Source: Mesostigma viride (lineage: Eukaryota > Streptophyta > Mesostigmatophyceae > Mesostigmatales > Mesostigmataceae). From it: a DNA stretch of 64,000 nucleotides. The notes under the pieces were generated by a model. It was not told the DNA's origin. It saw only the letters and a program-made list of their open reading frames with translations, and did no database searches. The stretch is from the NCBI GenBank assembly GCA_009746045.1, contig RPFO01000065.1, forward strand, positions 7,075,210 through 7,139,209. The letters are read 5' to 3'. Positions 7,635 through 18,211 of this stretch are shown here, piece after piece. A program made the translations under genes and the position numbers. Within the stretch, counting starts at the first letter, position 1. Every line of letters begins with the position of its first letter.

Positions 7635-10600
7635 ATGGACCCACCAACCCCAGAACCCATTCTGGTTCGACTTCATCGCCTGAAGGAGGCTGTTGAAACA
7701 TCCAGGACGGGCAGCCTGACTAACTTCGACAATGTCAGTGCCTTTTGGGTTCTGTTCAATGCGGTGGTGGTCATCCTCATTCGGAAAACGGTACGTCCTC
7801 GATTAGCCTGCCCGGCAGCGCAATGCTGCGCTACTTCATCGCTGGAAAAAATTAGAGCATTCCGGTGTTTCCGCGTGCATTTCTCTTCCTTCCCTGTGTT
7901 GAGCCCGCTCGACGCGGCCCGGCTTGACACCACCCTGTACCTGCTATTTCACATAGAACCACGCTCGCATGACTATGTTTGACGTGGCACGAAACCGCTG
8001 TCCCACGCTGGACCCGCCCCTGCGCGCGCCCAGGGTTTCCTGTGCCTGGAAGTGGGCGGCGTGCAGGCCCGTAACGCCAAGAGCATCCTCATCAAGTACA
8101 TCCTCGACATTTCACTCGTCATCCTCGTGTGGATGCTCATCGGCTACCCCATCGCGTTCGGGGGCGGGGAGGAGGCGCGCGCGTTTGTGGGCGGGGGTGA
8201 CTGGCCGTTTGGGGGCATGCAGCACGACTCGTATGCGGCCTGGTTCTGGCACCTGGGGTTTGCCGCGATGGCGACATCGATCGTGAGCGGTGAGTGTGAT
8301 GTCAATCTAAGTGAGGTGTGCCATATGGCAGTAGATAATGCGCCGCAATGACGAACGTCAACCGTGGACAGTGGGCATCATAAAGCGCGGTGAGGCATGC
8401 CGGATGGCACTAGGTAGCTAGCCACGATGGCCATGTCCACCATGGGCTGTGAGAATTTGAGCTGGCACGGCGTGGCAGTGCCTTATTCGCCGCAATCGCC
8501 AGTATGAATCGTAATCAGGGAGCAGGTGGGTGCGGCAATGGCAGGCATATGGAGTGGTCAGAATCCAATGTTATAGGGCTGATGTATGATACTGGTGTAT
8601 CTATGAATGTTATACGTCGTTCCCATGTTATAGGACTGACACTTGGATGCTGCGCTCTTTTGGGATGGCAGGTGTCACATCCCAAGACCCCATGCCCATG
8701 CCGGGTGCCTGGTTGCATGGCGTCGCATGTCGAAGATGTCCCACCCAGGTTACAAATGGCCGCATCATGGGGGCCCTGCCCACGTTAACCTAGCAAAATA
8801 GATGTGTGGGATTTTTGCATTGTTCGTCATGACCAGCACCGATCATCACGTCATGAACATCACTTGTCCGCGAGGATCTGTGCCCCATTACCCAACCCAA
8901 CTCAAACCAAACCAAACCAAACCAAACCAAACCAAACCAAACCAAACCAAACCAAACCAAACCAAACCAACCCAACCCCACCCGACCCGACCCGACCCGA
9001 CCCGACCACAATCACGTCATTACCAACAACAAGCACCCGACAGCAAACGCCTCGCTTGACCCCATGAAGACAATCATACTCGTAATAACAAACAAATAGC
9101 AAATCAAATCATATCATCCTCATAATAATAACAAATAATCATGCTAATAATAACAAATAAGCATCCTCAAAATAAGCACAAAATCACACTCGTAATACTA
9201 ACAAACCATCATTCTTATACTCACACTCGCACCAAACAGGTAGCCTGGCGGAGCGTTGCACGCTGCGCGCCTACCTGCTCACCAGCGCGAGCGTCGTGGG
9301 CGTGATCTACCCGTGCGCGGCGCACTGGGTCTGGTCCCAGTCCGCCTGGCTCTCACGCGATGACTCGCTCGGCCTCCAAGGCAGCCACCCAAGTGACGAC
9401 GGCAGCACCAACCATGGGTCCGAGCTCGCGTTTCACGATTTCGGGGGCTCGGCCGTCGTCCACGTGTGCGCGGGGTCGGTGGCCTTGGTCGGCGCGGCCC
9501 TGCTCGGCCCACGATTGGCCCGCTTCCGACCCACGGGGGAACGCCGCCAGGGGGGCCGCCGGTGGCACATCCGGGGGCATAACCTTGTCACGTCTGCCCT
9601 CGGCCTCTTCCTGATCTGGCTCACCTGGTACGGCTTTAATGCTGGCACCGCGTGCTCTTCGGGGGTCGAGTCCCTCCTCCTCCCGCTCTATGACATCCAA
9701 CCCCCGCCCGCCCCCGCCCCCGCGAGCAATACCGGAAAAGGCATCGACGTCACACCGGCCAACCCGATGCACCAGCTGTACTTCTACGGGGTGAGCCACC
9801 CAGGGAAGTGCGCGGGCAGGTCGGGCGCGACGCGCGTCGTCATCAACACGTCAGTCGCGGCCTGCGCCGGCGGGATCGCGGTTCTGTTGGCGACAGCATT
9901 CCTCCAGTCCCTCCCCTGGCTCCGTCGTGGCCTCGCGGCGCGCCTCGCTCCCCCGTCGCTGAGGAGATTCCTGCGAGTGGGCGGCCTGGGGGGAGGGGGG
10001 GGGGCGGCCAGAGGACCCCGCAGCTGGACGACCGAGACTCGCTGCTGCATCCGTCACTTGGAAAGACAGGTGGCGGCAGCAAGCGCGCCGATTGGTTCAC
10101 GCTGGATCTGTTCCCGGTCCTGAACGGTGTCCTGGGGGGTCTCGTTGCGGTCAGCGCAGGGGTTGATCGCTACTCCCCTTGGTCCTCTGCGGTCGTGGGG
10201 GCCATCGGGGCGGTGGCGTACATGGCGATGAGCGCGCTGCTGCTGAAGTTGCGGGTGGACGACCCACTGGATGCGGTGGGGGTCCACCTGGGGGGGGGCG
10301 CGTGGGGCACGATCGCGGTGGGGCTGTTCCAGTCGGGCGTGATGGATGGCAACGTGCATCAGCTGGGGTACCAACTGGTAGGTGTCGTGGTCGCTATAGT
10401 ATAAAGTGTCTGTTGGGTAGTAAGTGGGTTGGGCGACGCTCATTGGTACGTATCTCTGTGGATGTTATGTCAGTACTCTGTGGCATGAATACATCCTTTC
10501 GTGCCTCCGTTGTGTTGCCAATCTGACTGCTGTGGTCTATCGTCCGCTCAATGTCACATCTCTAAATTGTGAAAGTTTGCCATTGTAGGGTGGGGATGCT

Positions 10601-11130
10601 CCTTCCTGTGCTCTCGCTGTGAAGATTTTTTACATTACACCAAGTTTTGGGTATTGGCATGGACCCGTATCGGCTATAAGATGGTGACACCCATCAGCTG
10701 GGGGTGCCAGGTGGCAGCTCTCTCTGTGGAGTCTTCATTGTACCTGTATGGGCGTGTACTAGTACACAGCTACCATAGCCATACCTAGTAGCTATAGGAC
10801 AGTGACACCCACTGGCTTGGGTACCACGTGGTAGGATATCCCGTCTGTCTCTTCACTTTCTCAATGTGCGTGTGTGAGCAAAAGAGGAAAAAGCAAGATA
10901 GCAGTATTGATAAAATCAAGCATACTCCAAGTGAAACTAGCTCTGCCCACCAGTTACACCTGCCAGCTAACAGGAACAACCCCTTGAAAACTGCCTGCCA
11001 CTGCCACTGCCGGCCACCCCAACCCCCCACCCCCACCCAAACATTTCCCCCCCACAAGACCCATCTCTTCACACCACCAACACCAACACCACCAACAACA
11101 ACAACAACAAGAACACGCACGCACACACAA

Positions 11131-17100: not shown

Positions 17101-18211
17101 ACGCGCGGTCTACAGCGGGGTGACGGTGAAGGAAGTCAGCGAGCTGCGCCGGTGGGCGTTCTGTGCGCAGATTCTGGTCAGCGGAATGGCAGTCCGGGTG
17201 CTGACGCTCGAGGTTGCCCAAGAGGAGGCAGCGGAGGCAGCCGCGGGGAGGGGGAGGGCGCAGGCAGCGGCCGCGGCCGCGGCGGCGGCTTTTACTGCCG
17301 CGAACGTCAGGGCAACATCTCTGGGGGGGACCCCTTTGGCCTTGTCCCGAGCGCACTCGGCGAAGAACGCGGGCAACATGGCCTCATCATCATCTCCCAG
17401 GTTCGCCCCATACCCCAATGACTCGAAATCCCTGGGGGTAATGGGGAGTGGGGACCCTGGGACCAGGCCTCTGGGGGCTTTCTCACTGCCCCATCACCCT
17501 CGTCCATCCCACCTCGATCCTCACTCGCAGTCATGTACATCCCCCTGGGCACCCGGCCCAATGGAGGAGGCGGTCAGCGGAATGGCCGTGCTGCGGGCTT
17601 ATGATGGCCTACTGTTTGGGGAATGGGACAAGCACATGCCGGGCCACGATGCGTACTATAGCGGTCACTATGCCGCCGGGCAGCCACACGGGGGCCACCC
17701 CAACCCTCAGGGTCCCGGGGGGCCCAGCTCCCTGGGCTCTGCGGCCGCGGCGTCGCTCCGGATGCTGGGCGGCGGGTCGGGCCGCGGTGGGTTTGCGGCG
17801 ATCAGCGGGCTGAATCAGCCCTTTTTGTCGTCGTCATCGGCGATGGGGTCTCTGGCATCCGCGACTCGGTTCGTGTTCGAGTACCTGCCCGCCCCACTGC
17901 TGCTCCGTCGGGCCTACTGGCCGCTGCTCCGGCAGGAACGGCTGATCCGGCTCAACCTGGGGCTGGTCCCCTCGGGCGACTGGAGTGCCGAGTTTGGGCA
18001 GTGGGGGCTGCTGGGGGGGATGGGCGGCGGGGGTGGCGGCAGCACAGCGGGGGGCTTGTATATGACCGGGACTGATTGGACCCCCGGGGAACAGGTCGAC
18101 GGCAGTACGCGCAGCAGCCAGTATCTAAGGGCCCCGTGCACCTTGGCGGAGCTGCTTCACTTCACCGGCGACAGCAGTGGGGGTGGGGGGGCGGGGGATT
18201 GGGCAGCTTAG
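7635..18211 (+). CDS. Ammonium transporter fused to two class III nucleotide-cyclase homology domains
   Basis: Six exons: 7635-7790, 8034-8289, 9240-10377, 11240-11806, 12686-12898 and 14621-18211. All have GT..AG borders and compatible phases, giving about 1,973 residues. One base seems to be missing in a G-run near 9990-10003. Residues 1 to about 550 are an Amt/Rh channel with 11 expected helices. GFLCLEVGGVQARN, IVSGSLAER, DFGGSAVVH (His about 212), WYGFNAG and DDPLDAVGVHLGGG (His about 487) show that both pore histidines, the substrate-recruiting Asp and the Phe gate are kept. LGLVTIAAWA then LRVSFVAEQCGLDLLFHKG form the last helix and the Amt C-tail. Cyclase domain 1 follows (about 570-830: VTVLALMVDGDRG, GLRLKIGMDTGDV, VVQRALSLCECVPEG). 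Domain 2 (about 1292-1650: FASTSVDGLSALMAW, GQGGFLIAF, GLRVGIGVHSG) is split by a roughly 190-residue Gly/Ser/Pro insertion. The linkers are low-complexity. Inferred role: ammonium sensing or transport coupled to a cyclase-like output on the cytosolic side. Confidence 0.85.
8903..9005. repeat. Pentanucleotide microsatellite in intron 2
   Basis: About fourteen AACCA units are followed by four CCCGA units. It lies inside the second intron of the ammonium-transporter fusion. The opposite strand is GT-rich. Confidence 0.9.
9990..10003 (+). other. G-run where the transporter frame shifts
   Basis: Upstream exon 3 (through RRFLRVGGLG) and downstream exon 3 (from KRADWFTLDLFPVLNG) are in different frames. 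The switch falls in a G-run of about ten bases. Adding one base restores one continuous transporter domain. A sequencing or assembly slip is the simplest reading; a real frameshift would truncate the protein before the last helices. Confidence 0.7.
11090..11187. repeat. CAA / CA / poly-A tracts in intron 3
   Basis: ACCAACA-type units, an (AC)n run and about 29 consecutive A residues lie just 5' of exon 4. A pyrimidine-rich stretch with CCCACC repeats then leads to the acceptor CCACCAG. Confidence 0.85.
11950..12135. repeat. G-rich 48-bp tandem repeat in intron 4
   Basis: Units contain GGGGAGAGAGGGGTTTAAGA and GTCTTGAGAGGGGCTTGTT in about 2.5 copies. It follows T-run and G-run tracts at 11813-11870. 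No coding signal was seen. Confidence 0.75.
12868..13448 (+). repeat. 67/70-bp minisatellite duplicating the exon 5 splice donor
   Basis: Nine copies are visible. The first is the true exon 5 end (GTGTATGACCTGCCG|GTACGT at 12898/12899). Seven further copies with the same junction have ACCTGCCGGTACG starting near 12961, 13028, 13098, 13168, 13238, 13305 and 13375, and a ninth, decayed copy (CCAGTATG) lies near 13445. Units are 70 bp, or 67 bp where TTTACTAG is shortened. Reading past the first donor meets TAG within seven codons, so use of a downstream donor would truncate the protein inside cyclase domain 1. Confidence 0.9.
13449..13848. repeat. 57-bp minisatellite, seven copies, in intron 5
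   Basis: Each unit carries GCACGAACAGGTTAGGGG, CCGCCCCTTTGCCCAGTATG and TGCGCTTGCCGGTA. The GAACAGG phrase recurs every 57 bases from 13464 to 13806. Because 57 is a multiple of three, both strands show open repetitive frames, which are incidental. The seam phrase TTGCCGGTACG resembles the donor phrase of the preceding array. Confidence 0.9.
13884..14005. repeat. 24-bp minisatellite, five copies, in intron 5
   Basis: Units follow GGGCCCTTGATTTGTTACAA plus TAGAC with small variations. It directly follows the 57-bp array. Confidence 0.85.

Follow-up and report, generated by a model that had tools for sequence, protein, structure and literature searches.

The accessible portions of the literature describe ammonium transporters (Amts) fused to a kinase (PMC5764959) or to MCP or PII domains, and protist fusions of a channel or an ATPase to a cyclase (PMC12414865, PMC7858053). 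We analyzed a 64,000-nucleotide stretch of the Mesostigma viride genome (contig RPFO01000065.1, positions 7,075,210 to 7,139,209; here, the window). A predicted gene at 7635-18211 on the plus strand joins an Amt to two class III cyclase-homology domains (CHD1 and CHD2) with long low-complexity linkers, as an initial annotation of the sequence had proposed. That annotation had placed the organism among the chlorophytes; M. viride is a streptophyte alga. New here are two further Mesostigma loci, L097 and L094, that by alignment share the Amt-CHD1 junction of the window gene.

Ks-Amt5, the Amt-histidine kinase of Kuenenia stuttgartiensis (PDB 6eu6), resembles the window gene in carrying a signaling-type domain on the Amt C terminus (PMC5764959). 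It differs in being bacterial, in having a kinase instead of cyclase domains, and in its extra ammonium site, of which the window protein keeps little. Bacterial Amt-MCP (P0010) and Amt-PII (P0005 and P0009) fusions also bear a C-terminal signaling domain but lack a cyclase domain and are bacterial or metagenomic. The Paramecium adenylyl cyclase and Plasmodium guanylyl cyclase alpha are described as combining a membrane transport module with a class III cyclase (PMC12414865, PMC7858053); there, however, the module is a K+ conductance or a P4-ATPase rather than an Amt, and the cyclases are active. COP5/HKR1 of Chlamydomonas is, like the window protein, a green-algal membrane protein, in this case a receptor whose cyclase domain is reported to lack key residues, and it affects ammonium chemotaxis; its architecture of rhodopsin, kinase, and response regulator contains no Amt (PMC11621555, accessible text). 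An Amt-cyclase fusion was named in none of the titles and abstract openings of the literature searched, which mostly excluded subscription papers. Neither ammonium nor cyclase occurred in the accessible main text of two Mesostigma genome papers (one of them PMC7027972). A survey of eight Chlamydomonas AMTs gives lengths of 478 to 782 amino acids, and the word cyclase is absent from its main text as available (PMC11353525).

After splicing, the window gene encodes 1,972 residues (with an X placed at a run of G bases) in the order Amt (~567 residues), CHD1 (spread over exons 5 and 6 and the start of exon 7), a linker of ~460 residues, CHD2, and a tail (Table 1). The five introns used (243, 950, 862, 879, and 1,722 bases) are all GT-AG and preserve the frame. 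The stop-free run of exon 7 extends for 1,245 codons (the longest among 300 mononucleotide shuffles was 480), and third-codon-position G+C over the exons is 0.60 to 0.87. The public gene model jgi/Mesvir1 Mv10965-RA (P0001; 1,508 amino acids; EukProt) matched at 100% identity with 45% of the query region covered. Its start, MAMSALLLK, lies inside the Amt part, and it contains the joins 10377|11240, 11806|12686, and 12898|14621 exactly, that is, three of the five introns. As described in the accessible text of one genome paper, assembled transcripts were among the several types of evidence from which the Mesostigma gene set was built (PMC7027972). The CHD is joined to the Amt C-terminal region within the same exon in the window and in the same frame in L097 and L094, although signaling by the CHD is putative. 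Because a single exon encodes both the final Amt helix and the beginning of CHD1, the fusion does not depend on guesses about splicing.

The initial proposal of six exons with matching phases had missed a frame change within exon 3. Upstream of the 10-G run, the Amt continues in another frame, so that the frame through the transporter is not continuous as assembled. An error of base counting in the assembly is favored because L097 likewise shifts frame around a run of 13 G bases. As an alternative to a frameshift, we considered a short intron near 9880-10135; of the 73 frame-preserving possibilities with GT-AG or GC-AG borders, none was convincing.

The transporter part matched Pfam Ammonium_transp (PF00909) at an E value of 1.5e-77 (261.4 bits, compared with a cut-off of 23.2). 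The seven pore positions read F, W, D, H, F, T, and H, of which six are the usual residues; the two gate Phe, the Trp, the Asp, and the His pair are retained, as initially claimed for the His pair, Asp, and Phe gates, and the filter Ser is replaced by Thr. By sequence, then, the pore is nearly intact. Among solved structures, the top sequence match was 8qj3 (144.6 bits), a chain of 644 residues designated ammonium transporter, followed by Ks-Amt5 as the second entry (136 bits); 2b2f (99.2 bits) and the ammonia channel of E. coli, 4nh2 (55.6 bits), scored lower. The extra ammonium site of Ks-Amt5 is formed by Q24, E31, N47, D50, T51, T109, and T112 (PMC5764959, accessible text). The corresponding window residues are K, E, Y, D, I, S, and S, so that 2 of 7 are kept. 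Conservation of this site was rejected as a mark of sensors: it cannot separate sensors from transporters because two Amt loci with no detected CHD (L093 and L098) keep 5 of 7 positions, the same as L097. When residues 1-831 and exon 7 were compared with Pfam, no kinase family matched at E ≤ 1. The nearly intact pore and the poorly kept sensor-type site would both suit a conventional transporter for ammonium uptake, with a CHD tail that serves only for regulation or anchoring and has no part in sensing. We consider this quite unlikely in view of a tail of ~1,400 residues in which both CHDs are still recognizable and of the related Ks-Amt5, which signals through its C-terminal domain (PMC5764959).

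CHD2 was identified with a profile built only from bacterial class III domains (58 of 80 loci as input, 56 rows kept). With its insert removed, CHD2 scored 28.5 bits, compared with a maximum of 5.6 in 1,000 shuffles, and in the uncut protein the same profile detected both halves in order, for 15.4 bits in all. Alignment of CHD2 with the bacterial domains placed the bacterial second half into the insert. On these profile scores, window CHD2 is clearly cyclase-like. The Pfam part of the initial proposal held for Ammonium_transp and not for Guanylate_cyc (PF00211), which was not reported at E ≤ 10 for either CHD1 or CHD2 with the low-complexity stretch excised.

CHD1 is more divergent. No solved structure matched it at E ≤ 10, and its 0.7 bits with the bacterial-only profile, reached by 26 of 500 shuffles, is at chance level. 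When CHD2 was added to that profile, 4 of 500 shuffles reached the CHD1 score, and 2 of 2,000 reached the score of a direct CHD1-CHD2 alignment. Against the 56 bacterial domains individually, the mean score was reached by 17 of 300 shuffles and the maximum by 2 of 300. In profile-profile runs, the shuffles reaching the score numbered between 98 of 200 and 0 of 200, with the best results when the CHD1 loops were cut. A profile of the bacterial set plus the L097 CHDs gave 4.4 bits, reached by 3 of 1,000 shuffles, a weak separation. Direct alignment to L097 CHD1 gave a score of 81 (shuffle maximum, 57; 0 of 1,000), and a wider profile that included L097 and other Mesostigma CHDs gave 16.1 bits (shuffle maximum, 5.7; 0 of 1,000). 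Since the paralogue aligns and the wider Mesostigma profile separates CHD1 from shuffles, we take its homology as settled. Both CHDs are thus class III homologues by sequence comparison, CHD2 through the bacterial profile and CHD1 through L097 and the wider profile.

A search of the 440-Mb Mesostigma genome yielded 29 Amt exon matches, grouped into 12 loci including the window; ten other loci were examined, and C1757 was left out. CHDs were detected by profile in 2 of these 10, L097 and L094. The remaining eight gave none at E ≤ 0.01, a threshold at which a CHD decayed like window CHD1 would escape, and downstream cover varied between loci. A single 675-codon frame in L097 covers the Amt plus the first half of CHD1 and scored 72.7 bits with the bacterial-only profile. 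Pfam assigned this frame Ammonium_transp at 2.5e-111 and Guanylate_cyc at 18.7 bits, under the cut-off of 21.9; with the two halves of L097 CHD1 joined, Guanylate_cyc rose to 47.2 bits, over that cut-off. Residues 1-702 of the window protein aligned to the L097 frame through both Amt and CHD1 (E value, 1e-84; 31% identity), and L094 showed the same Amt-CHD1 join (E value, 2.7e-11). The junction motif YP[DE]F[LM]V is common to all three genes, and CHD2 pieces occur downstream of Amt-CHD1 in both L097 and L094.

These alignments also bear on the history of the fusion. Window CHD1 scored 81 against L097 CHD1 and 58 against L097 CHD2 (1 of 1,000 shuffles), and window CHD2 scored 236 against L097 CHD2 and 167 against L097 CHD1. 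Each window CHD matches its own L097 counterpart best; therefore, both CHDs would have been present in the ancestor, before duplication. The Amt parts of the window gene, L097, and L094 grouped together with a support of 0.994 in an unrooted tree of 25 rows, in which exon pieces were merged and some rows were short. On this evidence the Amt-CHD fusion had a single origin, included both CHDs from the start, and was later duplicated, and the window gene is one of at least three predicted Amt-CHD genes in Mesostigma. The copies are not equivalent. L097 differs from the window gene in keeping the metal Asp residues of CHD1, and L094 in its pore, where one His is replaced by Phe and both gate Phe residues by Leu; judged from these residues, L094 is probably not a normal ammonium channel.

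The same comparison speaks to whether two adjacent genes, or an assembly chimera, have been taken for one. The long repeat-rich introns, notably 12899-14620, could be read that way, but Amt helix 11 and CHD1 occupy one exon in the window and one frame in L097 and L094, and the shared junction motif recurs ~3 Mb away and on another contig. We regard such an artifact as extremely improbable. Separate transporter and cyclase transcripts are likewise predicted to be unlikely, since each of the three genes has its final Amt helix and the beginning of CHD1 within a single exon or open frame.

Six catalytic positions were compared. In the set of 56 bacterial domains, they are occupied by D (56 rows), K (46), D (55), D (56), N (55), and R (55). 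Window CHD2 has S, L, G, V, K, and E, so that all six differ: the metal-binding Asp positions are Ser and Gly, and the base-binding and transition-state positions are L, V, K, and E. In window CHD1, the profile left the regions of the catalytic positions unaligned; by alignment to L097, the first metal Asp position is Met and the second falls within an insert. L097 CHD1 reads D, Y, D, S, E, and A, with both metal Asp residues kept and the other four positions changed, and L097 CHD2 reads T, A, V, L, R, and R, retaining the Arg alone. The Asn position was filled in 29 of 60 Mesostigma CHD pieces (those of L097 included). Loss at this position is common in Mesostigma, as only 11 of these 29 have Asn.

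The initial annotation had suggested that ammonium binding or conduction could directly control cyclic-nucleotide signaling. For the window copy this was not borne out: cyclic-nucleotide synthesis by it appears unlikely because CHD2 is changed at all six positions and CHD1 lacks the metal Asp. A working ammonium-gated cyclase, in which the window CHD pair makes cyclic nucleotide upon ammonium binding or conduction despite these substitutions, would account for two recognizable class III homologues in the protein; we judge it very unlikely given the residues just listed. L097, with an Amt in one frame and the metal Asp residues of CHD1 kept, is a better candidate for a catalytic sensor than the window gene, and catalysis by L097 is uncertain on its residues.

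Class III cyclases act as CHD pairs, and Amts are trimers. With tandem CHDs, each chain could therefore build its own CHD pair. Our preferred reading, held with moderate confidence, is that the window gene belongs to an Amt-CHD family and encodes not a working cyclase but a transceptor or regulator for ammonium whose tail is a pseudocyclase. The window protein would form the usual Amt trimer. Binding or transport of ammonium may shift the Amt C-terminal region, which runs straight into CHD1, just as that of Ks-Amt5 runs into its kinase (PMC5764959). CHD1 and CHD2 of each chain would pair, placing a two-fold unit on a three-fold scaffold, and the pair should no longer hold two metal ions and would thus be a pseudocyclase. 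Its output could be conformational or scaffolding, or it could serve as a regulatory subunit for a catalytic partner, either another cyclase or L097 in a mixed trimer. The role would then lie in ammonium sensing or transport control rather than in cyclic-nucleotide synthesis.

Several points weigh against this reading. The Amt-CHD fusion is predicted from genomic sequence and a gene model, and nothing that we could read in the Amt part marks the window protein as a sensor (2 of 7 at the Ks-Amt5 site). CHD1 appears much decayed, and three profile tests gave no clear separation from shuffles. No relatives were found outside Mesostigma, which is weak evidence of absence with the divergent window copy as the query. 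Residues 1-850, compared with long proteins, matched only their own model, P0001, among the best 8,000 candidates by word sharing. The N-terminal half of the Amt matched none of 2,471 candidates (0.55 to 1.75 times 1,634 amino acids) at E ≤ 0.001. Among 8,000 scored candidates of 0.55 to 1.75 times 831 amino acids, the Amt part had 14 matches, and the Pfam lists of these contained no cyclase domain. A real lesion may underlie the frame change at 9995-10004, and the loss of cyclase residues would fit a decaying duplicate as well as it fits a pseudocyclase.

In that case, the window gene would be a decaying duplicate of a working Amt-CHD gene, with the tail or the whole gene losing function and the frame change in the Amt part perhaps an actual lesion. 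The missing active-site residues of the window CHDs and the altered pore of L094 are in keeping with such decay. A 1,245-codon open frame in exon 7, the third-position G+C, five intact introns, and the retained pore positions are not, and the change of frame at a long G run in L097 too points to base counting in the assembly. We consider decay rather unlikely.

A bolder extension of the pseudocyclase reading, which we regard as doubtful, is that an Amt trimer drives a tandem class III pair, with L097 metal binding and possibly catalytic and the window protein acting as a pseudocyclase regulator in mixed trimers, together forming a eukaryotic receptor class. If true, this would represent the type of ammonium receptor, independent of uptake, that has been missing from swimming green algae. 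The series from a metal-Asp CHD (L097) to a pseudocyclase (window) would show a receptor enzyme turning into a noncatalytic regulator. More generally, bacteria have obtained sensors from Amts by attaching kinase or chemotaxis domains to them, and an early-branching streptophyte alga seems to have done likewise with class III cyclase domains, in three genes or more. An ammonium chemoreceptor apart from uptake is suspected in Chlamydomonas (PMC11621555, accessible text), and the Amt-CHD architecture offers a concrete, testable candidate type for such a receptor in a related flagellate.

Table 1. Features of the Amt-CHD gene in the window and of its two paralogues (positions in the window unless a contig is given)
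Feature	Coordinates	Strand	Basis
Whole gene	7635..18211	+	Splicing of the DNA; public model P0001 for the 3' part
Exon 1, Amt start	7635..7790	+	ATG at 7635, donor ACG|GTACGT; upstream of P0001 start
Exon 2, Amt	8034..8289	+	75.1 bits to Amt profile
Exon 3, Amt up to G run (end approximate)	9240..~9999	+	117.1 bits to Amt profile
10-G run, Amt frame change (base-count error, small intron, or real frameshift)	9995..10004	+	P0001 begins downstream
Exon 3 continued ("exon 4"), Amt with second pore His	~10003..10377	+	81.4 bits to Amt profile
Exon 5, last Amt helix and C-terminal region to ~11392, CHD1 start from ~11423	11240..11806	+	Amt profile 354-399, E value 0.026
Exon 6, middle of CHD1, GLRLKIGMDTG	12686..12898	+	Join found in P0001
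Exon 7	14621..18211	+	Spliced reading frame
Exon 7 start, CHD1 end, LYHHGEHEHL (compare WHHGEHML in L097)	14621..14785	+	Alignment to L097
CHD2, first half	16172..16417	+	Protein residues 1294-1375; 7.3 bits with bacterial profile, 39.4 bits with wider profile
Low-complexity insert in CHD2, ~200 residues	16418..17023	+	Between the two profile matches
CHD2, second half	17024..17227	+	Protein residues 1578-1645; 5.0 bits with bacterial profile, 19.4 bits with wider profile
L097, second Amt-CHD1-CHD2 gene	G000:C1468:4046500-4056400, 7196 to ~1070 (end inferred)	-	~3 Mb from the window
L094, third Amt-CHD gene	G000:C2000:1222500-1232400, ~9296 to 608	-	Another contig

The genome holds 59 places related to L097 CHD1, and the Mesostigma set of class III cyclase domains seems large. 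In the accessible text of one report, 57 and 63 cyclase domains are given for Chlamydomonas and Volvox, respectively (PMC4620153), and the CHDs of the fused genes could have come from such an expansion.

Within the gene, intron 12899-14620 contains ~8.5 copies of a 70-base repeat (12870-13455) whose sequence duplicates the end of exon 6, splice donor included, followed by 7 copies of a 57-base repeat at 13448-13845. Elsewhere in the window, ~475 GTT units run without interruption at 26820-28243 (100% matches), and a retroelement frame with reverse transcriptase and RNase H lies on the minus strand at 44158-45810 (RVT_1; E value, 1e-28). Two directly oriented copies of a ~7.1-kb block, at 45745-52871 and 55586-62669, are 98.2% identical, reflecting either a recent duplication or an assembly effect.

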